Shown here: one piece after another, positions 43,953-60,913 of the stretch | How positions within the stretch are numbered: the stretch's first letter is position 1 | How the letters are laid out: each line of letters opens with the position of its first letter | NCBI RefSeq assembly: GCF_000283655.1 | Contig: NC_016585.1 | Coordinates: 819,501 to 883,500, forward strand | Direction of reading: 5' to 3' | DNA: 64,000 nucleotides | Origin: Azospirillum lipoferum 4B | GTDB taxonomy: Bacteria > Pseudomonadota > Alphaproteobacteria > Azospirillales > Azospirillaceae | Notes under the pieces: generated by a model | Databases searched by the model: none | What the model was told of the DNA's origin: nothing | What the model saw: only the letters and a program-made list of their open reading frames with translations | Position numbers and translations under genes: made by a program

Positions 43953-46952
43953 CTATGCGCTGAGACGCTTGTTCTCGGGGTCGACGAACACCATGCCGGC
44001 GATCGTCGCGGAATGGACCTTGTCCGGCATCGGAACATGCACGGTCTGGCCCTGCAGGGAGCGCCCGCCCTGGATCACCGCAAAGGCGATGGACCGCCCC
44101 AGCTCGGCACTCCAGTAGGACGAGGTCACATGGCCGACCATCTCCATCGGAACCGGCTGGTTGGGGTCGAGGACGATCTGCGCCCCTTCCTCCAGCACGG
44201 TCTTCGGATCAGCGGTCAGCAGGCCGACCAGTTGCTTGCGGTTCGGCGCCAGCATGTCCGGGCGCGACAGGGACCGCTTGCCGACGAAGTCCGGCTTGGT
44301 CTTGCCGACGGCCCAGGACAGGCCGGCATCGTCCGGCGTCAGGGTGCCGTCCGTGTCCTGGCCGACGATGATGTAGCCCTTCTCGGCGCGCAGGACATGC
44401 ATCGTCTCGGTGCCGTAGGGGGTGATGCCGAAGCGCTGCCCGGCCTCGAACAGCTTCTCCCACACCGCGCGGCCGTAGCGGGCCGGCACATTGATCTCGA
44501 AGCCGAGTTCGCCGGTGAAGGAGACGCGGAACAGCCGGGTCGGCACGCCGAAGATCTTGCCGATGGCGACCGCCATGTGCGGGAAGGCGCCGTCCGACAG
44601 GTCGATGCCCTCGACGAAGGGCTCGATCAGCTTGCGGGCGTTCGGACCTTGCAGCGCGATCACCGACCATTGCTCGGTGGTCGAGGTCAGCCAGACCTTC
44701 AGGTCCGGCCATTCGGTCTGGAGGTAATCCTCCATCATGTTCAGGACGCGCGCCGCGCCGCCGGTGGTGGTGGTGACGTGGAAGCGGTCATTGGCCAGAC
44801 GCCCGATCACGCCGTCGTCGCGGATGAAGCCGTCCTCGCCCAGCAGCAGGCCGTAGCGGCAGCGTCCGGGCGCCAGCTTGGTCCAGGCGTTGGTGTACAT
44901 GCGGTTCATGAACTCGGCGGCGTCGGGGCCGACGACCTCGATCTTGCCGAGGGTGGAGGCGTCGAACATGCCCACCGAGGTCCGCACCGCCTTGCATTCG
45001 CGCGCCACCGCCGTGTGCATGTCCTCGCCGACCTGCGGGAAGTACCAGGCGCGCCGCCACAGCGACACCGGTTCGAACACCGCGCCGTTTTCCTCGGCCC
45101 AGCCGTCGATCGGCGTCTTGCGCGTCACGTCGAACAGCTCGCCCTTGTTGTAGCCGGCGAAGGTGCCGAAGGTGGTCGGCGTGTAGGGCGGGCGGAAGGT
45201 GGTGAGGCCCACCGCCGGGACCGGCCGCTTCAGCGCATCCGACGCGACGGCCAGACCGTTGATGTTGGACGTCTTGCCCTGGTCCGTCGCCATGCCGTTG
45301 GTGGTGTAGCGCTTGATGTGCTCGATGGACTTGAAGCCTTCGCGCACCGCCAGCCGGATGTCCTTGGCCATCACGTCGTTCTGGAAATCGACGAAGGCCT
45401 TGGCATGGCCCGGATCGCGGTCGGTCGGCAGCTCGCGGCCGGTCACGCCGGTGAAGGACAGCTCGCCCTCCACATGGTAGGCGGCCGGTTCCGCGCCGAA
45501 CCCGGCATCCGCCGCAGCGGCGGCACCGGCAGCGGCACCGTCCTCGAAGGCGGTCTTCAGCCCGAAGCGGCCCTTGCCGGCACCGGCCAGACGGCATTCC
45601 TCCTTGCCGCGGCCGGGCAGGAACATATGGCCGTCCTCGTTCCAGGTCAGCGAACCCTGGGTGTGCGAGAACAGATGGACGCTGGGGGTCCAGCCGCCCG
45701 ACATCAGCAGCGCGTCGCAGGCGATGGTCTCGGCACCGCCGACCTTGCCGCCGCCGGTCACCGGATTGACCCGCACCGACGAGACCCGCAGGCGGCCCTT
45801 GGTATCGGTGACGGTCCAGCCGATCAGCGTCCTGATGCGCAGTGCATCGGCCGCCGCCGCCAGCTGGGTCGGCACGGTGCCGCGGACATCGACGATGGCC
45901 GCGACCTCGACCCCCGCCTTGGCGAGATCGAAGGCGGCATGCCAAGCGCTGTCATGGGTGGTGACGACGACCACCCGGTTGCCGACCTTGACGCCGTAGC
46001 GGTTCAGGTAGGTGCGGGCGGCACCGGCCAGCATCACGCCCGGCCGGTCGTTGCCGGCGAACACCAGCGGCTTCTCGATGGCGCCCTGCGCCAGCACCAC
46101 CTGCTTGGCCCGCACCTTCCACATCCGCTCGCGCGGCGCGCCTTCCGGCACGATGGCGAGATGGTCGGTCAGACGCTGGCAGAGGCCGACAAAATTCTGG
46201 TGGTAGTAGCCGATGGCCGTCGTACGCGGCAGCACCGTGACGTTCGGCATCCCCGCCAGCGCCGCGGCGGTGTCCTCCAGCCAATCCCAGGCCAGCTGGC
46301 CGTTGATCTCGGCGGACGGCTCGGACAGCAGCGAACCGCCGATTTCCGACTGCTCGTCGCACAGGATGACCGACGCGCCGCTGCGCCCGGCTTCCAGCGC
46401 GGCAGCGAGACCGGCCGCACCGCCACCGACGACCAGCACATCGCAATGGGCGAAGCGGCTGGCGTAGATGTCGGGATCGGGGGCGGTCGGTGCCTTGCCC
46501 AGGCCGGCGGCGTTGCGGATGACCGGCTCGTAGACCTTGTCCCAGAAGCTCTTCGGCCACATGAAGGTCTTGTAGTAGAAACCGGCCGAGAACAGCATGT
46601 AGAGCGCGTCGTTCACCGCGCCGATGTCGCGGCTCAGCGACGGCCAGCGGTTCTGGCTCTCGGTTTTCAGACCTTCGAAGACCTCCAGCACCGTCGCCCG
46701 CGTGTTCGGCTCGAACCGCCCGTTGCCGCGGTCGGTGCCGACCAGCGCGTTCGGCTCCTCCGACCCGGCGGACAGGAAGCCGCGCGGCCGGTGATACTTG
46801 AAGGACCGCCCGACGAGGTGGACACCGTTCGCCAGGAGTGCGGATGCCAGGGTGTCGCCCTCGAAGCCGGTGTAGTCCACGCCGTCGAACGTGAAGCGGA
46901 CCGACCGGCTGCGGTTGACCCTGCCCTTGCCGGCAATGCGGAAGTTGCTCAT
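43953..46952 (-). CDS. soxA: Sarcosine oxidase alpha subunit
   Basis: 999 residues. The N-terminal part has a 2Fe-2S-ferredoxin-like fold (YTGFEGDTLASALLANGVHLV) and an FAD/NAD-binding Rossmann domain (DVLVVGGGAAGLAAALEAGR near 165-185). The C-terminal 400 residues form a GcvT-like tetrahydrofolate-binding domain (GMFDASTLGKIEVVGPDAAEF; GELGFEINVPARYG). In the complex it transfers the oxidised methyl of sarcosine to THF as 5,10-methylene-THF. Its ATG overlaps the soxD stop (ATGA). Confidence 0.95.
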   Translation of the reverse strand: MSNFRIAGKGRVNRSRSVRFTFDGVDYTGFEGDTLASALLANGVHLVGRSFKYHRPRGFLSAGSEEPNALVGTDRGNGRFEPNTRATVLEVFEGLKTESQNRWPSLSRDIGAVNDALYMLFSAGFYYKTFMWPKSFWDKVYEPVIRNAAGLGKAPTAPDPDIYASRFAHCDVLVVGGGAAGLAAALEAGRSGASVILCDEQSEIGGSLLSEPSAEINGQLAWDWLEDTAAALAGMPNVTVLPRTTAIGYYHQNFVGLCQRLTDHLAIVPEGAPRERMWKVRAKQVVLAQGAIEKPLVFAGNDRPGVMLAGAARTYLNRYGVKVGNRVVVVTTHDSAWHAAFDLAKAGVEVAAIVDVRGTVPTQLAAAADALRIRTLIGWTVTDTKGRLRVSSVRVNPVTGGGKVGGAETIACDALLMSGGWTPSVHLFSHTQGSLTWNEDGHMFLPGRGKEECRLAGAGKGRFGLKTAFEDGAAAGAAAAADAGFGAEPAAYHVEGELSFTGVTGRELPTDRDPGHAKAFVDFQNDVMAKDIRLAVREGFKSIEHIKRYTTNGMATDQGKTSNINGLAVASDALKRPVPAVGLTTFRPPYTPTTFGTFAGYNKGELFDVTRKTPIDGWAEENGAVFEPVSLWRRAWYFPQVGEDMHTAVARECKAVRTSVGMFDASTLGKIEVVGPDAAEFMNRMYTNAWTKLAPGRCRYGLLLGEDGFIRDDGVIGRLANDRFHVTTTTGGAARVLNMMEDYLQTEWPDLKVWLTSTTEQWSVIALQGPNARKLIEPFVEGIDLSDGAFPHMAVAIGKIFGVPTRLFRVSFTGELGFEINVPARYGRAVWEKLFEAGQRFGITPYGTETMHVLRAEKGYIIVGQDTDGTLTPDDAGLSWAVGKTKPDFVGKRSLSRPDMLAPNRKQLVGLLTADPKTVLEEGAQIVLDPNQPVPMEMVGHVTSSYWSAELGRSIAFAVIQGGRSLQGQTVHVPMPDKVHSATIAGMVFVDPENKRLSA

Positions 46953-47317
46953 GGACGTGCATCCTTGGAGCTGGAAGCGGCCCCGGTGGAGGCCCCGGTG
47001 GCGGTGGCGCTGGTGCCGGCGGCGGCAAGCGCGATCTCCTCGTCGCTCGGACGCGGGGCCCCGGACTTGTAGGTCATCGCGAATTTGTCGGTCACGGTGT
47101 CACGCACCGCGTTGAAGAAGCGGCCGCAACCGTGCATGTGGCGCCAGCGTTCGAAATGCCGGCCGCGCGGGTTGGTGCGGATGAAGAGGAAGTCGCGCCA
47201 TTCGTCGTCGGACAGGGCGGAGGGATCGACCGGTCGCGCGATGTGCGCCTCGCCGGCATAGGTGAACTCCACCTCGGGGCGCTCTGCTTCGCAATAAGGG
47301 CAGCGGATCAGCAGCAT
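46949..47317 (-). CDS. soxD: Sarcosine oxidase delta subunit
   Basis: 122 residues. Zn-binding pattern CPYC (6-9) near the N-terminus with HMHGC later, plus GEAHIARPVDPSALSDDEWRDFLF, are characteristic. The C-terminal 25 residues are a low-complexity Ala/Thr/Ser tail. Gene order soxB-D-A-G is canonical. Confidence 0.93.
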   Translation of the reverse strand: MLLIRCPYCEAERPEVEFTYAGEAHIARPVDPSALSDDEWRDFLFIRTNPRGRHFERWRHMHGCGRFFNAVRDTVTDKFAMTYKSGAPRPSDEEIALAAAGTSATATGASTGAASSSKDARP

Positions 47318-47327
47318 GGTCGTTTCC

Positions 47328-48581
47328 TCAATGCGCGACGGCGGCGGCGGCGGCCTCGTCGATCAGCCGGCCGGTCTTGAAGCGCTCCAGCGTGAAGGGC
47401 GCGTTGATCGGGTGCGGCTCGTCGCGGGCGATGGTGTGGGCGAAGACGTTGGCCGACCCCGGCGTCGCCTTGAAGCCGCCGGTTCCCCAGCCGCAATTGA
47501 CGTACAGCCCCGGCACCGGCGTCTTGCCGATGATCGGCGAGCGGTCGGGCGTGACGTCGACGATGCCGCCCCATTTGCGCAGCATGCGCATGCGGTTGAA
47601 GATCGGGAACACCTCGCAGATCGCGGCGACGGTATGCTCGATCAGCGGCAGGCCGCCGCGCTGGCTGTAGGAGGTGTACTGGTCGGTGCCCGACCCGATG
47701 ACCAGCTCGCCCTTGTCGGACTGGCTGATATAGGCGTGCACCGTGTTGGACATCACCACGCAGGGGAAGGCCGGCTTGATCGGTTCCGACACCAGCGCCT
47801 GCAGCGGATAGCTTTCCAGCGGCAGCCGGACGCCGGCGGTGTCCATCACCACCGAGGTGTTGCCGGCGGCCGAAACCGCGACCTTTTTCGCCTTGATGAA
47901 GCCGCGCGCCGTCTCCACACCCGTGACGCGCCCGGAGGCGTCGCGGCGGATCGCGGTCACCGGGCAGTTCTGGATGATGTCGACGCCGCGCGCCGAGGCG
48001 GCCCGCGCATAGCCCCAGGCCACCGCATCGTGGCGGGCGGTGCCGCCGCGCCGCTGCAGCGCGGCCCCCATCACCGGATAGCGGGCGTTGGCGGCGATGT
48101 TCAGCGGCGGGCAGTATTCCTTGGCCTGTTCCGGCGTCAGCCACTCGTTGTCGATGCCGTTCAGGCGGTTGGAATGGATGTGGCGCTTGAAGCTCTGGAT
48201 GTCATGGACCGTGTGCGCCAGCATCATCACGCCGCGCTGCGAGAACATGACGTTGTAATTCAGCTCATGGCTCAGCCCTTCCCACAGCTTCACCGCATGC
48301 TCGTACAGACGGGCACTTTCGTCGTAGAGATAGTTGGAGCGGATGATGGTGGTGTTGCGGCCGGTGTTGCCGCCGCCGAGCCATCCCTTTTCCACCACCG
48401 CGACATTGGTGATGCCGTGTTCCTTGGCGAGATAATAGGCCGCACCCAGACCATGCCCGCCCGCGCCGACGATCACGACGTCATATTCGGATTTCGGTTC
48501 GGCATCGGGCCATTGAGGCTGCCAGTTCTTGTTGCCGGTCAGCGCGTTGGTCAACAGCGAGGTAAGTGAGAAGCGGGTCAT
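47328..48581 (-). CDS. soxB: Sarcosine oxidase beta subunit
   Basis: 417 residues, DadA/GlyOX-type flavoprotein. The FAD dinucleotide fold [20 protein letters not shown] is at about 35-54; the covalent-FMN histidine region and [14 protein letters not shown]-like end ([16 protein letters not shown]) are present. It oxidises sarcosine. First gene of the soxBDAG-glyA operon; divergent from an AraC/GlxA regulator. Confidence 0.95.
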
Positions 48582-53148: not shown

Positions 53149-53682
53149 TTACTCCTGCGTATCCAACATGAAGTGTCGAACCTTGTGCCGGTTTTCGATC
53201 AGTTCTTCGATGCTGGGTTCATCGCGCATGGCCCGGCCGATGGCGATCTTGGTGGCTTCGTAATTGGTGCGATAGAGATCGGCGCGATCGAGGTTCGGAT
53301 CGGTGGGGCAGCGCGGGTCGATCCAGACCATCACCAGAATGCACAGGTCATTGACCCGATCGCGCGGCAGCACGCCGTCGATGACGCAGTCCAGCACCGC
53401 GTCGGCCGTGGCGGCCTGGACGATGCCGCCGAACAGATCGACATAGGCGCTGGACTTCATCGTCACCTTGGACACCATCATGGTGGCCGGGCGAACCATC
53501 TGGTTGCAATCCCGCACCGCAAACATGCGGGTATGACCGGCGGTCTGCCCCATCATGGTGGCAAAGGCATGGCCGGCCGGACCGTCGACCGTGCCGATCA
53601 CGATCTCCGGCATGGCATCGGTGAACTGGCCTTCCTTGGCGAACACGGTGGCCTCGCCGACGCGAAACAGATGATTGCTCAT
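53149..53682 (-). CDS. Formaldehyde-activating enzyme (Fae)-like protein
   Basis: 177 residues with the Fae fold: VGEATV near the start, MMVSKVTMKSSAYVDLFGG, the AVLDCVIDGVLPRDRVNDLCILVMVWIDP core, and NYEATKIAIGRAM. In methylotrophs Fae condenses formaldehyde with tetrahydromethanopterin. No other pterin-pathway gene is in the window. Residues where I expect the catalytic His (about 18-27, DAMPEIVIG) lack a histidine, so the activity may differ. Start is Met at 53682; an alternative Met at 53727 overlaps the upstream stop as ATGA. Context (betaine demethylation) suggests handling released formaldehyde. Confidence 0.8.
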   Translation of the reverse strand: MSNHLFRVGEATVFAKEGQFTDAMPEIVIGTVDGPAGHAFATMMGQTAGHTRMFAVRDCNQMVRPATMMVSKVTMKSSAYVDLFGGIVQAATADAVLDCVIDGVLPRDRVNDLCILVMVWIDPRCPTDPNLDRADLYRTNYEATKIAIGRAMRDEPSIEELIENRHKVRHFMLDTQE

Positions 53683-53723
53683 GGGATCGTTGCTCTCTTT
53701 TTTACAAAGGGTGATAGTGCCGG

Positions 53724-55439
53724 TCATGCGGCACGGATGCCGTCCAGCAACCGTTCGATGCTGCGGCGCAGCAATTCGGTTTGGCCGGCCAGATCCGCCG
53801 CAGCGGTCAGTACGTGCCGTGTCGCGCTTTCGGTGTCGCGGGCACCGCTGGTGACATGCCGGGCGTTGCGGGCGACCACGCCCGCCCCGGATGCCGCCTG
53901 GTCGATGCTGGCGTGAATGGTGGCCGAGGCGGCGGCTTGCGCCTCCATCGACCGGGCGATGGCGAGCGAGATGGTGCTGATCTCCTCGATCACCGCGGTA
54001 ATGCTCTGCAGGGCCAGGGCGGCGTTGCCGGTTGCGTCCTGCATCGCCTGGATTCTGAACGAGACGTCCTGCGTCGCCTTTGCGGTCTGGCTGGCCAGCT
54101 GGCGCACCTCCTGCGCCACCACCGCGAAGCCTTTGCCGGCCTCGCCCGCGCGCGCGGCTTCGATGGTTGCATTCAGGGCCAGCAGATTGGTCTGTCCGGT
54201 GATCTCATCGATGATGCGGACGACGTTGCCGATGTCCTGGGCCGACTCCCGCAGGCTGTGCACCGACTCGTCCGCCTTGCGGGCCTGCTCGACCGCCGAC
54301 AAGGCGATGCGGGCGGAATCGTCGATGCGCAGGCGGATCTCGTCCAGCGACCGAAAGGTGTCGTCGGCCAATGCGGAGACGGACTGGACATTGCTTGCGA
54401 TCTGCTCGGCGGCCACGACGGTCGATGACGCCTGCTCGTTGGTGCGGTCAATGATGCCAGTCAACTGGCGCGCAGTGCCGTCGAGCGCTCCAGCCGACGA
54501 ATCCACCGTGTCCAGTCCCTCCATCGCCGTCCGTTCGAAATGGGAAATCAATTCCTCAAGGTGGGCCGCACGCAGGCGCTGGCGCCGACTGGCCGCAATG
54601 TCCTGGAAGGCCGCCCGGACATGCTCATTCGCAGGGGATTCGAGGATTTCATCAGGGGTGCCGATCTGCGTGATGCGCCCCGCTTCCATGAAGGCGATAT
54701 GGTCCGCCAGCCGCACCGCTTCGTCCGGCTCCTGGGTGGAAAGCAGCACCGTCGCACGATGCGACCGCTGCCATTCGAGGAACTCGGCCTCCAGCTCCTG
54801 CCGCAGGACAGGATCGACTCCGGCAAAGGGCACATCCATCAGCAAGATCGACGGATCGCCGATCAGGGTCCGCGCCAGACCGATCCGCAGCCGAACCTCG
54901 AACGGAACCTCGTGCGGGAGTTGGGCGGCGACATGGGCCAGCCCGATGCGTGTCAGCACGGCAAGCGCCCGGTCCCGACGGTCGCGCCGGCGCAGCCCGG
55001 CAACCTCAAGTCCGAAGGCGACATTGTCCAGAAGACTGCGATTCGGCATCAACGCCGCGGTGCCGAACGTCATCGCCATGGTGTCGCGGCGGACAGCCAC
55101 CAGATCGGCCGGCGTCATCGCCCCCATGTCGCGCCCGTTCAGGAACACGGTCCCGCCGGTGGGTTCGACCAGACGGTTCACCATGCGGATCAGGGTCGAC
55201 TTGCCGGAATTGGACCGGCCCAGCAACGCCAGTATCTTGCCGGCCGACAGGTCGAAGGAGACGCCGGCCACGGCCACCGTCGCGCCGGTTTCCCGCCGGA
55301 TGTCGGCGCGGTCCGCACCGGCCTGCAGCATGGCCAGAGCCTGTGCGGGATTGCCGCCATACAGCTTGCATAATCCCTCAGCCGACAAGATCACGCTGGC
55401 GGTCGACGCGATGTCCTGCATGTGTGCTGACGAATCCAT
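53724..55439 (-). CDS. Chimeric ProV-like pseudo-ATPase fused to methyl-accepting chemotaxis signalling domain
   Basis: 571 residues in one frame, no membrane segment. Residues 20-282 align with the betaine ABC ATPase ProV/OpuAA, including its N-terminal extension ([17 protein letters not shown]) and closing [18 protein letters not shown]. Catalytic motifs are ruined: Walker A GRSNSGKS (74-81) keeps Lys80; Q-loop Gln is Gly126; LSGGM is VPFEV (178-182); the Glu after Walker B is Val203 (MDVPF); the switch His is Gln236. ProV's CBS pair is replaced by an MCP domain (about 300-565) with hairpin tip [20 protein letters not shown] (409-428). It follows the betaine-binding-protein gene and precedes the fae-like gene. 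Inferred role: cytosolic chemoreceptor. Confidence 0.93.
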
Positions 55440-55608: not shown

Positions 55609-56499
55609 TCAAAGCTTGCCGGTGACCCAGTAATCGATCCGGGCCTTGTTGTTCTTGATGTAATTGTCGACCGCCTTCTCATAGCTGGACTGGCGGGCTT
55701 CCTGCATCATCGCCTCCAGATCGCCAATCGGCAGGACCATGCGATTCAGGAACTCGTAGACTTCCGGATGATCCTGGTAGAAACCCTTCCGGACGATGGC
55801 GTTCACGCTCTCCAGCCCGCCCAGAGCGCCCTTCGGATCGTCGATGTAGCGCAGCTTCCAGTTGGCGAACATCCAGTGCGGGCTCCAGCTCGTCACGACG
55901 ATCCACTCGTTGCGCTTCATGGCGCGCTCCAGAGCGGCGAGCATCGCGGCATCGCTGGCCGACACCAGCTGCATTCCCTTCAGATCATAGGTCTTCAGCG
56001 CCTTCTCCGACGCCTGCATCAGCCCCGAACCCGGATCGATGCCCTGGATCTTGCCGCCCAGCTGCTTCTGCACCTCGGGCTTCTTCAGGTCTTCGATGGA
56101 TTTGACCTGGTCGACGGGAATATAGTCCGGCACCACCCAGCCCAGACGGGCGCGGGTGTAGAGCGGGCCGAGGTCGACGATGTCCTTGCCGACCTTGTCG
56201 AGATAGGGCTTGTGGGTCAGCGGCTGCCAGGACATCAGCATGGCATCCAGCTTGCCGCTGGCGATGCCCTGATACTGGATGCCGATATCGGCCATGGTCA
56301 GCTCGACCTTGTAGCCGAACCGCTCCTCGATCACATGCTTGGCCAGCTTCGTCACCGCCTCGGCGTCCGACCAGGCGGTCCAGCCGATGTTGATGGACTT
56401 CTCCGCCGCCTGCGCCTTATTGGCGATCGCACCGGCCCCAACACCGACGGTCATGGCCGCCGACAGCAGAATGCCCAAGGCTTTACCGAAGATTTTCAT
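55609..56499 (-). CDS. Glycine betaine/proline-betaine periplasmic binding protein (ProX/OpuAC type)
   Basis: 296 residues with a signal peptide (about 1-31, ending KAQAAE). The mature protein carries Trp residues expected for the aromatic cage that binds quaternary amines (IGWTAWSDAEAV; MLMSWQPLTHKPYLD; TSWSPHWMFANWKL). AGAGGAGG precedes the ATG. It would bind betaine-like ligands in the periplasm. No ProW-type permease is next to it; the next gene in its direction is the ProV-like/chemoreceptor chimera. It is divergent from gbcA with 635 bp between. Confidence 0.9.
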   Translation of the reverse strand: MKIFGKALGILLSAAMTVGVGAGAIANKAQAAEKSINIGWTAWSDAEAVTKLAKHVIEERFGYKVELTMADIGIQYQGIASGKLDAMLMSWQPLTHKPYLDKVGKDIVDLGPLYTRARLGWVVPDYIPVDQVKSIEDLKKPEVQKQLGGKIQGIDPGSGLMQASEKALKTYDLKGMQLVSASDAAMLAALERAMKRNEWIVVTSWSPHWMFANWKLRYIDDPKGALGGLESVNAIVRKGFYQDHPEVYEFLNRMVLPIGDLEAMMQEARQSSYEKAVDNYIKNNKARIDYWVTGKL

Positions 56500-57134
56500 C
56501 AAGAAGCCTCCTCTTATCGTTTGTTTGTTTGGATCGGCTGATTCGCCATGCGGAGACGCTTGTACCGGACGTGTGCAAGTGCCCCGGCAGATCACCCCCG
56601 TCTTGCCGATGGCCGTGACCGGGCGAAGGACCCGCATTCAGCTTGCGGATGGTCGATCACCGTCGCGGATGAAGGCGGAAAGCCGATTCCAACTGATGCG
56701 AACCGTTGCGGACATCAGTATCGATTGAGGAAGAATGCCGGGCCTGAAAGCAAAAAACCTTCATCAGAGCGGCAATTCGTATCGGATTTGCGACAGCCTC
56801 GCACGAACCCCGCCCGGCCTGCGAATTCTGCACAGCCTGCAAGCCGATACCTTGAAAAGGTCTGCGGCGGACAAACCTTCACCACCGCTCGACGAAGCGG
56901 CCATCGCCGTTGAACAATCGCGTCATGTCGCAAACCGACCATTGCCGAAGTCCGGCTGGCGCAAAAAGACCGGACTGGCTGTCGGCCTTTTTAAAGTTGA
57001 TGTCGCAATCCAGAACGCGGCGCGCTCCGGCGAGCGGCACGCTGTGCTCCGTGGAATCGAGAAAAGCACAGCCCGGTCAAGGTTGAGACGGTTCCGCGAA
57101 CACACGGCCCCACTCCCGCAGAAGGTCAACCGTC
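56500..57134. promoter_or_regulatory. Long divergent control region between binding-protein operon and gbcA
   Basis: 635 bp without a convincing gene. A shared motif TGTCGCAA-(A/T)-(C)C occurs three times: minus strand at 56784-56795, plus strand at 56926-56936 and 57001-57011. A fourth TGTCGCAAA is upstream of dgcA (60987). These are candidate sites for the GbdR-type regulators. The composition is less GC-rich than the flanking genes. Confidence 0.5.
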
Positions 57135-58415
57135 ATGTCGTCCGAGATCTCCATAGAAACCCTGCTGACGCGCCGCAAGAAGGGGTACAGCCTGGAAGCC
57201 CCGTTCTACACAAGCGAGGAAATTTTCAAGCTGGACATGGAGATCATCTTCGGCCGCCACTGGCTGCATGTGGGCGTCGAACCGGACGTGCCGGAGCCGG
57301 GCGACGTGATGGTGGTGGATATCGGCAAGACGTCCGTCATCGTCATGCGCGACGACGACATGGAACTGCGCGCCTATCACAATGTCTGCCGCCATCGCGG
57401 CGCGCGCATCATCCTCAAGGAAAAGACCTCGGTCGGCAATCTGGTGTGCAGCTATCACCAGTGGACCTACGGCCAGGACGGCGAGCTTCTGTTCGCCGAG
57501 CATATGGGCAACGATTTCGACCGCAAGTGCCGGAACCTGAAAAAGGTGCACATCCGGTCCGTCGGCGGCCTGATCTTCATCTGCCTGGCGGAGGAGGCTC
57601 CGGACGACATCGACCGCATGGCGGCGGCCATCGAGCCCTACATCCTTCCGCACGACCTGAAGAACTGCAAGGTCGCCAAGACGGTGGACCTGATCGAGAA
57701 GGGCAACTGGAAGCTCACGATGGAAAACAATCGTGAATGCTACCACTGCGTCGGCAACCATCCGGAACTGACCATCCCGCTGTTCGAATACGGCTTCGGC
57801 TTCGCCCCCGACGGCACCAACCCGAAGCGGATGGAGCACGCCGCGAAGTACGAGGCGCTGGTGCAGTCCTGCCACCTCGGCTGGGAGGCGGCCGGCTTCC
57901 CCAGCCGCGAGGTCGAGCGCCTGACCGACGTCACCGGCTTCCGCACCGAACGCCTGCCGCTGGACGGCGCCGGCGAGGCCCACACCAAGGACACCCGCAG
58001 CGCGTCGCAGAAGCTGCTGGGGTCGATCACCGAGCGCAAGCTGGGCGCCCTGTCCTTCTGGACCCAGCCGAACTCGTGGAACCACTTCATGAGCGACCAC
58101 ATCGTGACCTTCTCGGTGTTCCCGCTCGGTCCCGACCGCAACCTGCTGCGCACCCGCTGGCTGGTCCACAAGGACGCGGTCGAGGGCGTCGACTACGACC
58201 TGAACCGCCTGACCGAGGTGTGGGAGGCGACCAACCAGCAGGATGCCGATCTGGTCGAGATCTCGCACAACGGCGCCATCAGCCCCGCCTACGAGCCCGG
58301 CCCCTATTCGCCCTACACCGAGCCGCTCGTCGAGAAGTTCACGGATTGGTATGTCAGCCGCATGTCCGAGCATCTGCTGGGCAAGCAGGCCGCGGTGGGC
58401 GTCGCCGCCGAGTAA
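57135..58415 (+). CDS. gbcA: Glycine betaine monooxygenase, Rieske oxygenase subunit
   Basis: 426 residues. The Rieske centre ligands are Cys85, His87, Cys105 and His108 (CRHRG; CSYHQW). The mononuclear iron site is in ENNRECYHCVGNH, with His204 and His209; the bridging acid is Glu201 rather than the usual Asp, as in other quaternary-ammonium Rieske enzymes. It demethylates glycine betaine to dimethylglycine with release of formaldehyde, using electrons from the reductase encoded next. It could in principle take a related betaine; the neighbours strongly favour glycine betaine. Confidence 0.93.
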   Translation: MSSEISIETLLTRRKKGYSLEAPFYTSEEIFKLDMEIIFGRHWLHVGVEPDVPEPGDVMVVDIGKTSVIVMRDDDMELRAYHNVCRHRGARIILKEKTSVGNLVCSYHQWTYGQDGELLFAEHMGNDFDRKCRNLKKVHIRSVGGLIFICLAEEAPDDIDRMAAAIEPYILPHDLKNCKVAKTVDLIEKGNWKLTMENNRECYHCVGNHPELTIPLFEYGFGFAPDGTNPKRMEHAAKYEALVQSCHLGWEAAGFPSREVERLTDVTGFRTERLPLDGAGEAHTKDTRSASQKLLGSITERKLGALSFWTQPNSWNHFMSDHIVTFSVFPLGPDRNLLRTRWLVHKDAVEGVDYDLNRLTEVWEATNQQDADLVEISHNGAISPAYEPGPYSPYTEPLVEKFTDWYVSRMSEHLLGKQAAVGVAAE

Positions 58416-58484: not shown

Positions 58485-59621
58485 ATGACGATGCAGCAGG
58501 ATGCGGCTCCGGCTCCGGTCAGGGACTGGGATCCCGAAATCGACGACACGCTGGTGTGCCGGGCGGTGCGGGACGAAACGCATGACGTGAAGACCTTCGT
58601 CTTCGCACCGAAGCGCCCCTGCCTGTTCCGGTTCAAGCCGGGCCAGTTCATCACGCTGGAATTGCCCATCGGCGGTGAAACCGTTCAGCGCAGCTACACC
58701 GTCTCCTCTTCCGCCGCGCGGCCGCACCGGCTTTCCATCACCGTCAAGCGCGTGCCCGGCGGCCCGGTGTCGAACTGGCTGCACGACACTCTGAAGCCCG
58801 GCGACACGATCCGCGCGGTCGGTCCGCTCGGCGAGTTCACGCCCGGCGAGTCCGAGAAGCCGCGCAAGTTCCTGTTCCTGTCAGGCGGCAGCGGCGTCAC
58901 GCCCCTGATGTCGATGACCCGGACCTTCGACGATCTGGGCGAGGATCATGATATCGTCTTCGTCCACGCCGCCCGCACGCCGGCCGACATCGTCTTTCGC
59001 CGCGAACTGGACGCGCTGACCGGTCCCGGCCGCCGCCTGCGCGTCGCGCATGTCTGCGAGGGCATCGGCACCGAGGCCCATTGGGCCGGTTTCACCGGCC
59101 GGCTGTCTCTGCCGATGCTGGGACTGATCGCTCCGGATTTCATGGAGCGCGAGGTCTATGTCTGCGGTCCCGGACCCTTCATGAAGGCGGTGCGCAGCTT
59201 CCTGGAAGGGGGTGGCTTCGATATGAGCCGCTACCACCAGGAAAGTTTCAACTTCGAGGAAATGGCCGCGGAACTCGCAGCCGGACATGCCGCGGAAGAC
59301 CTGTCGGCCCAGGCGGCAGCGATCCAGGCCGCACCGGCCGGGGAAGCGCCGGCCTCGGCCGGGTTCCGCATCGAATTCACGAAGACCGGCAAGGTCTTCA
59401 CCTGCCCGCCCGACATGGCGGTGGCGGATGCCGCATCGGCCGCCGACATCCGGGTTCCGACCTCCTGCTCGCGCGGGTTGTGCGGAACCTGCAAGACGAA
59501 ATTGATCTCCGGCACCGTGGAAATGAACCACACCGGCGGCATTCGCAAACGCGAAATCGACCAGGGGTTGATTCTGCTTTGCTGCAGCCGCCCGACCAGC
59601 GATCTGGTGATAGAACGCTAG
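58485..59621 (+). CDS. gbcB: Glycine betaine monooxygenase, ferredoxin-reductase subunit
   Basis: 378 residues: FAD domain (RSYT at 69-72), NAD domain (FLSGGSGVTP; CGPGPFM at 227-233) and a C-terminal plant-type 2Fe-2S ferredoxin (Cys328, Cys333 and Cys336 in CSRGLCGTC, and Cys366 in LLCCSRP). It passes electrons from NAD(P)H to GbcA. GGAGAGAG precedes the ATG; an in-frame ATG two codons later is an alternative. Confidence 0.93.
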   Translation: MTMQQDAAPAPVRDWDPEIDDTLVCRAVRDETHDVKTFVFAPKRPCLFRFKPGQFITLELPIGGETVQRSYTVSSSAARPHRLSITVKRVPGGPVSNWLHDTLKPGDTIRAVGPLGEFTPGESEKPRKFLFLSGGSGVTPLMSMTRTFDDLGEDHDIVFVHAARTPADIVFRRELDALTGPGRRLRVAHVCEGIGTEAHWAGFTGRLSLPMLGLIAPDFMEREVYVCGPGPFMKAVRSFLEGGGFDMSRYHQESFNFEEMAAELAAGHAAEDLSAQAAAIQAAPAGEAPASAGFRIEFTKTGKVFTCPPDMAVADAASAADIRVPTSCSRGLCGTCKTKLISGTVEMNHTGGIRKREIDQGLILLCCSRPTSDLVIER

Positions 59622-59758: not shown

Positions 59759-60913
59759 GTGGGGAAGACAGTGGAATATCGCCGTTTCGGCGGTAGCGGT
59801 CCCGCACCCCGGCAGGAGGAACGCGCGCTTTTGTCGGTCGGGTTCATCCTGACCAACAACTTTACGCTGACGGCGCTCGCCCCCTTCATCGACGCCCTGC
59901 GGCTGGCCGCCGACGAAGGCGACAGATCGCGACAGATCCGCTGCCGCTGGACCATCATGGGGTCGCGGCCGGAACCGGTGATGTCCAGTTGCGGCATCGG
60001 CGTCGCCCGCTGGGAGCCGCTGACCGATCCCCGCCGCTTCGACTATCTGGTCGTGGTGGGCGGGCTGCTGCACGCCGGCCCGCAACTCGACGACGAGACG
60101 CTGGCCTATCTGCGCGCCGCGGCATCCTATGGCGTGACCCTGGTCGGCGTGTGCACCGGCAGCTTCGTGCTGAGCCGCATCGGCCTGATGAAGAACCGGC
60201 GCTGCTGCGTCAGCTGGTACCATCACAGCGATTTCATCGAGGAATTTCCCGATCTGGTGCCGGTGGCCGACCAACTCTACGTGGTGGACCGCGACCGCAT
60301 CACCTGCTCGGGCGGCGCCGGGGTGGCGGATCTGGCCGCCTTCCTGATCGAGCGCCATCTGGGCCGCGCCACGGCGCAGAAAACCATGCATATCCTGCTG
60401 ATCGACAAGGCCCGTCCGGCCAGCCAGTCGCAACCGCAGCCGCCGACGGTCATGGAGATCACCAACGACCGGGTCCGCCGCGCCCTGCTGCTGATGGAGC
60501 AGCACATCAGCGATCCCCTGTCGGTGGAAGAGATCGTCGGTCGCCTGAACGTCAGCACCCGGCAGTTCGAACGGCTGTTCCGGCTGGCCGTGGGCACCAG
60601 CCCGGCCACCTATTACCGCAGCCTGCGCCTGCGCTATGGCCACTGGCTGCTGCGCAACACCAAGCTCTCGGTCACCGCCATCGCGAACGAGGCCGGCTTC
60701 GCCGACTGCGCGCATTTCTCCCGCCAGTTCCGGGAGTTGTTCGGCGTCCCGCCATCGGAGGTGCGGCGCACCGCCGGACCGGATGTGGAGGCCGACCCGC
60801 ATTTTTCGCCTCTTGCCGCTTTCCGGCGTGCCGACGGCGATACCCTCCTGCCCGACCGCCGCCTGTTCGAGGATCCCGCGCCGATTGTCCAGGATGGCGC
60901 ACCGGTGGAATGA
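59759..60913 (+). CDS. GlxA/GbdR-family AraC-type regulator (second of two)
   Basis: 384 residues, same architecture as the regulator at 48.7 kb: a PfpI-like domain with retained Cys (VGVCTGSFVL) and an AraC HTH pair (LSVEEIVGRLNVSTRQFERLFR; VTAIANEAGFADCAHFSRQFRE). A GTG start is likely: GGGAGG lies 8 bp upstream, while an ATG at 59751 is out of frame. It has a 50-residue C-terminal extension absent from the first copy. It sits between gbcAB and dgcAB, the usual place of the betaine/dimethylglycine activator. Confidence 0.9.
   Translation: MGKTVEYRRFGGSGPAPRQEERALLSVGFILTNNFTLTALAPFIDALRLAADEGDRSRQIRCRWTIMGSRPEPVMSSCGIGVARWEPLTDPRRFDYLVVVGGLLHAGPQLDDETLAYLRAAASYGVTLVGVCTGSFVLSRIGLMKNRRCCVSWYHHSDFIEEFPDLVPVADQLYVVDRDRITCSGGAGVADLAAFLIERHLGRATAQKTMHILLIDKARPASQSQPQPPTVMEITNDRVRRALLLMEQHISDPLSVEEIVGRLNVSTRQFERLFRLAVGTSPATYYRSLRLRYGHWLLRNTKLSVTAIANEAGFADCAHFSRQFRELFGVPPSEVRRTAGPDVEADPHFSPLAAFRRADGDTLLPDRRLFEDPAPIVQDGAPVE

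Follow-up and report, generated by a model that had tools for sequence, protein, structure and literature searches.

Azospirillum lipoferum 4B encodes a chemoreceptor whose input domain is of a new kind: a single open frame joins a ProV/OpuAA-type nucleotide-binding domain (NBD) to the signalling hairpin of a methyl-accepting chemotaxis protein (MCP). The gene lies among betaine-degradation genes in the 64,000-nucleotide stretch of DNA that we analysed (the window), and in the lineage of the window the catalytic motifs of the NBD are replaced. The explanation we favour, tentatively, is that of a soluble, HAMP-less chemoreceptor whose ProV-type NBD, enzymatically retired in the window lineage, would dock on ProW and read betaine import. 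The features of the gene are as follows.

53724..55439, minus strand: NBD-MCP fusion gene, a single open frame of 571 aa with ABC_tran and MCPsignal
54579..55391, minus strand: ProV/OpuAA-type nucleotide-binding domain, residues 17-287 (ungapped match to the OpuA ATPase 7ahd, 8.2e-65; best Foldseek matches are OpuA)
55194..55220, minus strand: Walker A, residues 74-82, with G74, G79, K80, S81 and T82 kept and G77 replaced by Asn (residue check, clade alignment)
55062..55064, minus strand: Q-loop position 126, Gln replaced by Gly in 10 of 10 window-clade sequences (residue check, clade alignment)
54966..54995, minus strand: Arg-rich stretch 149-158 of the helical subdomain (clade alignment), putative equivalent of the OpuA cationic motif
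54894..54908, minus strand: signature position 178-182, VPFEV instead of LSGGM (residue check, clade alignment)
54831..54848, minus strand: Walker B, residues 198-203, Asp202 kept and catalytic Glu203 replaced by Val (residue check, clade alignment)
54732..54734, minus strand: switch (H-loop) position 236, His replaced by Gln in 10 of 10 window-clade sequences (residue check, clade alignment)
53736..54566, minus strand: MCP signalling hairpin, residues about 292-568 (MCPsignal at 379-533; full-length alignment with other MCPs of the genus)
54108..54197, minus strand: canonical hairpin tip, residues 415-444 (agreement with 46 non-fusion MCPs)

Both halves of the protein were recognised by Pfam above their gathering scores, ABC_tran at residues 59-205 (E 2.8e-19) and MCPsignal at residues 379-533 (E 5.7e-30; 104.9 bits against a cut-off of 34.6), which bears out the initial annotation in its claim that a full-length ProV/OpuAA-like domain and an MCP hairpin share one uninterrupted frame. 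The best NCBIfam model of the window protein is proV (TIGR01186), at 243.4 bits and thus below the cut-off of 326.6. Its NBD aligns without a gap over 271 residues (17-287) with the OpuA ATPase 7ahd, the nearest solved structure, and OpuA chains were the top Foldseek matches of an AlphaFold model built from 19 sequences (mean pLDDT 78.8); by alignment, model and Foldseek alike, the ProV/OpuAA fold is present. In the AlphaFold model an uninterrupted helix runs from residue 272 onward and the hairpin is drawn as one straight helix, which we take as an artefact of single-chain modelling; a model built from the single sequence was of low quality (mean pLDDT 56.8) and had the helix broken at 432-436. 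The CBS pair is gone, as had been annotated: neither a CBS nor a HAMP match was found in the fusion (Pfam, E up to 0.01), and the hairpin occupies the place of the CBS pair. There is no strongly hydrophobic segment in the protein (the 19-residue hydropathy maximum is 1.71) and no transmembrane segment was found in it. With its four defining motifs and the CBS pair tested and absent, the window protein is not a ProV. A promoter and terminator scan gave 0 and 1 sites, respectively, not above shuffles.

Among 45 Azospirillum genomes, 13 hold the fusion, 12 of them in an open frame and one in a broken one. Nine fusions are 81-84% identical to that of the window (genomes G008, G010, G015, G016, G022, G025, G026, G064 and G065), and more divergent full-length copies are found in G028 (47% identity) and in G030 and G032 (40-41%). 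The named records with a fusion at 81-84% are A. lipoferum Sp59b, A. endophyticum, Azospirillum sp. TSH64, A. oryzae COC8, A. oryzae A2P, A. melinis and Azospirillum sp. 412522; A. oryzae KACC 14407 also holds a fusion, which RefSeq labels merely 'methyl-accepting chemotaxis protein'. The broken copy is that of the nearest genome, G001, whose fusion pieces are 94-96% identical to the window gene and whose frame is interrupted at the hairpin tip by a net loss of 71 bases (L044 4837-6486), a break that could also be an assembly fault. For the architecture itself, an assembly or sequencing artefact is ruled out by the open full-length copies in 12 genomes. The annotation had envisaged, as grounds for such an error, that homologues might always have intact ABC motifs and a stop codon between the domains; as it turned out, only the G028 copy is motif-intact, and in none of the 12 open copies does a stop interrupt the match.

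To look beyond the genus we used a junction query of 136 aa from the G028 fusion, run on 385 genomes of the class, 398 of the phylum and 82 of the family (37 of the last outside the genus; E up to 1e-21). Among the matches listed with an open frame of at least 540 aa, none of the 18 outside the genus carried an MCP hairpin, and both of two true fusions were recognised as controls; frames below 540 aa are too short for both domains. In the samples searched, and among the matches listed, the fusion family is thus restricted to the genus. A search of 5000 plasmid records returned at least five that covered at least 80% of the query. One (H1) is a real fusion, that of A. oryzae KACC 14407; H5 was rejected as a separate ABC gene adjoining an MCP gene, and H2 and H4 as MCP frames with an UrtA-like part and no ABC domain. 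Two scans of viral contigs gave 16 ABC relatives in one, 10 of which were used in the structure alignment, and none in the other.

The residues that the annotation had listed as kept or replaced (K80, G126, VPFEV at 178-182, D202, V203 and Q236) were all verified, with the amendments that Gly77 has also become Asn and that the D-loop Asp209 is kept. The window fusion thus retains the Walker A GxxxxGKST pattern, apart from the change at Gly77, and the Walker B Asp202, and has lost the signature, the catalytic Glu, the switch His and the Q-loop Gln. Conservation of the substituted residues, which it had been proposed to check, holds in so far as the replacements are common to all 10 window-clade sequences compared: Gly stands at the Q-loop Gln, Ala, Phe, Ser or Val and then Asp or Glu at the two signature glycines, Ala, Gly, Met or Val at the catalytic Glu, and Gln at the switch His. 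As a reference we took the 93 positions with a conservation of at least 95% across 28 ProVs (24 genome loci and 4 viral-contig loci). The window clade retains 52 of them, distributed unevenly: seven of seven in the stretch 129-148 after the Q-loop, 7/9 in Walker A and 3/3 in Walker B are kept, as against 0/4 in the H-loop, 2/7 around the catalytic Glu and D-loop, 2/5 in the Q-loop and 6/13 around the signature. By this pattern the clade has lost catalysis and kept the fold, together with the stretch 129-148, which, going by ABC importer structures, probably faces the permease beside its coupling helix. Within the window clade, invariant sites are weakly enriched in that stretch (15/20, compared with 141/264 over the NBD; p 0.036, uncorrected, for one of 8 stretches tried).

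Next to this stretch lies the Arg-rich segment 149-158, and the closest solved relative of the fusion NBD, OpuA, senses ionic strength through a cationic helix-turn-helix of its own NBD (PMC11065425). One could accordingly picture an osmotic or ionic-strength receptor, in which the NBD keeps the membrane-binding cationic sensing surface of OpuA and passes its signal to CheA. The mean net charge over residues 146-161 is indeed higher in the window clade than in the 28 ProVs (3.4 vs 2.1), but the ranges overlap (3 to 4 and -1 to 4) and the neighbouring genes, described below, are catabolic rather than osmoprotective; we regard this explanation as improbable.

The fusion family appears, from its motifs, to span live to retired ATPases. 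All catalytic ABC motifs are intact in the G028 fusion, which has 89 of the 93 ProV-conserved positions and, at 357.4 bits, passes the NCBIfam proV cut-off (TIGR01186). G030 and G032, with 48/93, have all of the Q-loop Gln, the signature, the catalytic Glu and the switch His replaced, by Ala, Ala-Ala (at the signature glycines), Asp and Arg, respectively. The term 'pseudo-ATPase', which the initial annotation applied to the fusion, therefore fits the window clade and G030/G032, but not the architecture as a whole. In both dead clades the Lys-Ser-Thr of Walker A and the Asp of Walker B are retained, and position 27, presumably the A-loop, is still aromatic, with Tyr in place of Phe. This is what a non-hydrolysing nucleotide binder would look like, and the receptor might be an energy sensor, whose NBD binds ATP or ADP without turnover and reports their ratio, so that energy taxis would be independent of any importer. 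Such a sensor seems unlikely to us, since the window clade has Asn for Gly77 of Walker A, cellular ATP is usually above the affinity of such sites, and the tie to betaine genes would be left unexplained.

In the NBD tree all nine fusions form one group (98/95), as do the fusions in a 38-row MCP tree (94/92). In a 53-row MCP tree, which has seven fusions and adds the 18 MCPs nearest to the G028 hairpin, they split in two; a single group appears in 42% of bootstraps, and the AU test does not reject a single fusion clade (p 0.364). All these trees were built without short rows, duplicates and near-copies, and the larger MCP tree is also without two fusions and one long-branch MCP of the smaller set. 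The MCP trees pair G028 with G030/G032 (98/99 in the larger), an arrangement that the NBD tree does not have; forced on the NBD, it is not rejected, although near the line (AU p 0.068). The different replacements in the two dead clades and the pairing of G028 with G030/G032 in the MCP trees favour, without proving, two separate losses of catalysis. Another genome, G037, has a ProV-type ATPase gene and, 57 bases upstream of it and in the same direction, a dCache_3-HAMP MCP gene (L046 7734-11237, minus strand); an MCP gene adjoining a ProV-type gene in this way may have been a source of the fusion.

Fourteen positions of the hairpin tip were checked, 11 of which are invariant in 46 non-fusion MCPs; the window matches 11 of these 11, and G028 and G030 match 10. 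Hairpin length is about that of the genus's other receptors, with 287 of 290 columns retained in an alignment of 53 rows (most rows have at most 9 gaps, the worst 32). A scan of the window fusion for the methylation consensus gave no strict match and relaxed matches in the hairpin at 291 and 481. The tips of G028 (L041 8981-10684) and G030 (L043 4753-6498) have Lys and Arg, respectively, at position 418, where 46/46 other MCPs have Asn, and both have Arg at position 416 (window numbering), where 45/46 have Gln; judging from these residues, the coupling of their hairpins to CheA may differ from that of other MCPs.

The surroundings of the gene connect it with betaine. The relevant neighbours in the window are:

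55609..56637, minus strand: OpuAC-type betaine/choline substrate-binding protein (SBP), upstream of the fusion and in the same direction (PF04069, 2.5e-71)
53149..53727, minus strand: fae, formaldehyde-activating enzyme, downstream of the fusion and in the same direction (TIGR03126, 132.9 bits, above the cut-off of 118.05)
57135..58415, plus strand: gbcA, glycine betaine monooxygenase oxygenase subunit, as best match (NF058607, 453.8 bits, below the cut-off of 670)
58485..59621, plus strand: gbcB, glycine betaine monooxygenase reductase subunit, as best match (NF058606, 379.6 bits, below the cut-off of 500)
59759..60913, plus strand: GbdR-like AraC regulator (NF052371, 211.2 bits, below the cut-off of 480)
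43953..48581, minus strand: sarcosine oxidase genes soxB, soxD and soxA (TIGR01373, TIGR01374 and TIGR01372, all above cut-off)

On the minus strand the order is SBP, fusion, fae, and divergent from these run gbcA, gbcB and the genes of the GbdR-like regulator and of a large flavin oxidoreductase. Relatives have the divergent run continued by an Fe-S protein, etfAB, proV and proW, a part that for the window would lie past its end. Elsewhere in the window are soxBDA, glyA, a serine ammonia-lyase gene and purU, all above their cut-offs; no model identified a dimethylglycine enzyme in the window. This gene set reads as a route that starts at betaine and leads towards glycine, serine and pyruvate, the one-carbon load falling to fae and purU. 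Fae scores above its NCBIfam cut-off inside the betaine island (window 53149-53727), which suggests that formaldehyde handling is tied to betaine demethylation.

As for the importer, no SBP gene follows proVW in G001, G010 or A. oryzae KACC 14407. In G067 an SBP 87% identical to that of the window (over residues 80-341) comes after proW, and in G030/G032 one of 75% identity stands one gene beyond proW. Together, these arrangements indicate that the window-lineage SBP and the ProVW importer probably belong together and that the SBP probably feeds ProVW. The fusion of G030/G032 adjoins a GbdR-like regulator, in the same region as proVW. Around the G028 fusion the neighbours are unrelated (purT-like, DUF2325 and CoA transferase genes), with no betaine gene found in the surrounding 20 kb, although the G028 genome has gbcA. 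Overall, the link to betaine that had been surmised from the sequence is upheld by gene context, which ties the fusion to betaine import and breakdown genes (SBP, gbcA and gbcB, and proVW in relatives).

The same link is seen across genomes. A gbcA of at least 69% identity is present in 17 of the 45 genomes of the genus (the search matched 18, and G007, at 46% identity, was counted as lacking it), and 13 of these 17 have the fusion, compared with none of the 28 that lack gbcA (Fisher p 3e-8, with a lower real weight because the genomes are related). The gbcA-bearing genomes without a fusion are G005, G037, G066 and G067. In G066 the fusion gene is still recognisable between SBP and fae by 36 bases at either end, with the middle gone (L157 12073-12281), which shows that the gene was lost. 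At the G005 locus there is at most a 19-base trace of it (not significant, E 0.36) and no fae match. Trees of gbcA and of the SBP place G005 and G066 apart, with G066 grouped with fusion-bearing A. oryzae (81/90 and 94/98). The gene is dispensable, being deleted in G066, missing at the G005 locus and broken in G001, yet the receptor is useful enough to be retained under selection.

That selection was estimated within the window clade, on 10 sequences; the copy of G001, being broken, and both divergent clades were excluded. Over 45 pairs the NBD has a median Ka/Ks of 0.22 and the MCP hairpin one of 0.11, i.e., purifying selection acts on both. In a same-genome comparison of 8 genomes (G065, the window, whose ProV is outside it, and G001, which has no intact fusion, were left out), Ka/Ks is 0.029 for the NBD of the true ProV, 0.093 for the CBS part of ProV and 0.217 for the fusion NBD, which is thus constrained, though about seven times less than the NBD of the working ATPase.

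Two explanations that give the NBD little or no part in sensing bear on these figures. The domain could be a mere handle for dimerisation or localisation, the receptor being constitutive or a co-signalling member of the array, as might be expected from the looser constraint on the NBD than on the hairpin and from the loss of the gene in relatives. We find this rather implausible given an NBD Ka/Ks of about 0.22, the retention of Walker A and of 129-148, and the co-occurrence with gbcA. Alternatively, the gene could be decaying or artefactual, a chance fusion without function, for which its deletion, absence and breakage in the three genomes just named would speak. This possibility is largely refuted, and we consider it very remote: 10 window-clade sequences have an open frame on which purifying selection acts, and two more divergent clades have the fusion.

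The analysis shows the architecture, its conservation, the selection on it, the loss of motifs and the gene context, whereas docking on ProW, the nucleotide state of the domain, signalling and its sign are what we infer. The retired NBD would dock, through its retained ProV-like surface, on the ProW of a betaine importer made up of ProV, ProW and the SBP encoded by the adjoining gene. The docked form would probably be a homodimer, the form that MCP hairpins take, with the hairpin pointing away from the membrane. Betaine-driven transport would change the conformation of ProW and move the NBD pair, and this movement could pass along the continuous helix to the hairpin and alter CheA activity, so that betaine import would guide the movement of the cell and a periplasmic sensor domain would not be needed. 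MCP hairpins function in dimeric form, and the two NBDs of an importer lie side by side beneath the permease, C-termini facing the cytoplasm; given this geometry and a hairpin about as long as those of other receptors, a fusion pair under ProW could reach the array. A mixed pair of fusion and ProV would probably be a poor motor, since one site would lack its Glu, His and Gln and the other its signature, which argues for a sensor role of the fusion. Counting against docking are the weak enrichment in 129-148, the G028 fusion without betaine neighbours, the looser constraint on the NBD than on that of ProV, and the dispensability of the gene.

A more far-reaching version, which we consider possible although doubtful, takes the family as a record of a transport motor turning into a chemoreceptor. 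The live form, the G028 protein, would be ATPase of a betaine-type importer and CheA-driving receptor in one chain, its hydrolysis cycle gating chemotaxis, and the dead forms would have kept the permease plug and shed the motor, possibly twice independently, leaving the importer as the transmembrane, ligand-binding half. If docking on ProW is true, bacteria can use an importer as the sensing part of a chemoreceptor, and their taxis could track transport, not concentration; the cell may steer by the performance of its importer instead of sensing betaine directly. It would also exemplify an ABC ATPase retained for sensing once catalysis had been lost, and transport-dependent taxis would be testable with one gene and its natural variants (live, dead, deleted and frameshifted).

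The initial annotation knew of no described chemoreceptor with an ABC ATPase as sensor domain, and this is nearly right. Our literature search, most subscription papers being outside its scope, found neither such a chemoreceptor nor a functional description of one. In the part of a 2021 census of plant-associated bacteria that was available, Table 3 contains a ligand-binding-domain row 'ABC_tran' with one cluster and one sequence, among other single-sequence rows such as Usher and Porin_4 (PMC8547431). That row is the same Pfam combination, counted once, a bare count with no protein named or discussed in the part available.

The genus has another, different fusion between a chemoreceptor and part of a transporter: in A. 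argentinense Az39 (L160 2299-4668, plus strand) and A. brasilense MTCC4039 (L162 2283-4838, plus strand), one frame has an MCP hairpin and then an UrtA-type substrate-binding domain, with provisional start codons. Peripla_BP_5 is found in both frames, and that of L160, which lies downstream of two ABC ATPase genes, reaches 499.5 bits with TIGR03407 (cut-off 492.75).

Among known systems, the quaternary-ammonium chemoreceptors of the McpX type likely overlap with the fusion in chemoeffector; unlike the fusion, they bind their ligand directly in a periplasmic domain. The ProV/OpuAA proteins of type I betaine importers (OpuA, PDB 7ahc/7ahd) resemble the fusion NBD over 271 ungapped residues and as best Foldseek match; they differ from it in that the window clade is without the catalytic motifs and has the MCP hairpin in place of the CBS pair. 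Soluble chemoreceptors such as TlpD (PMC6978683) share with the fusion a canonical tip and the lack of a detectable transmembrane segment, but their inputs are CZB (TlpD), PAS, PilZ or similar domains, whereas that of the fusion is an ABC ATPase domain. Finally, in BceAB-BceS and PstSCAB-PhoU-PhoR a signalling protein reads the activity of an ABC transporter (PMC6978683). These systems employ a separate kinase or PhoU, whereas the fusion has ATPase domain and receptor in one chain, and its output would be chemotaxis.
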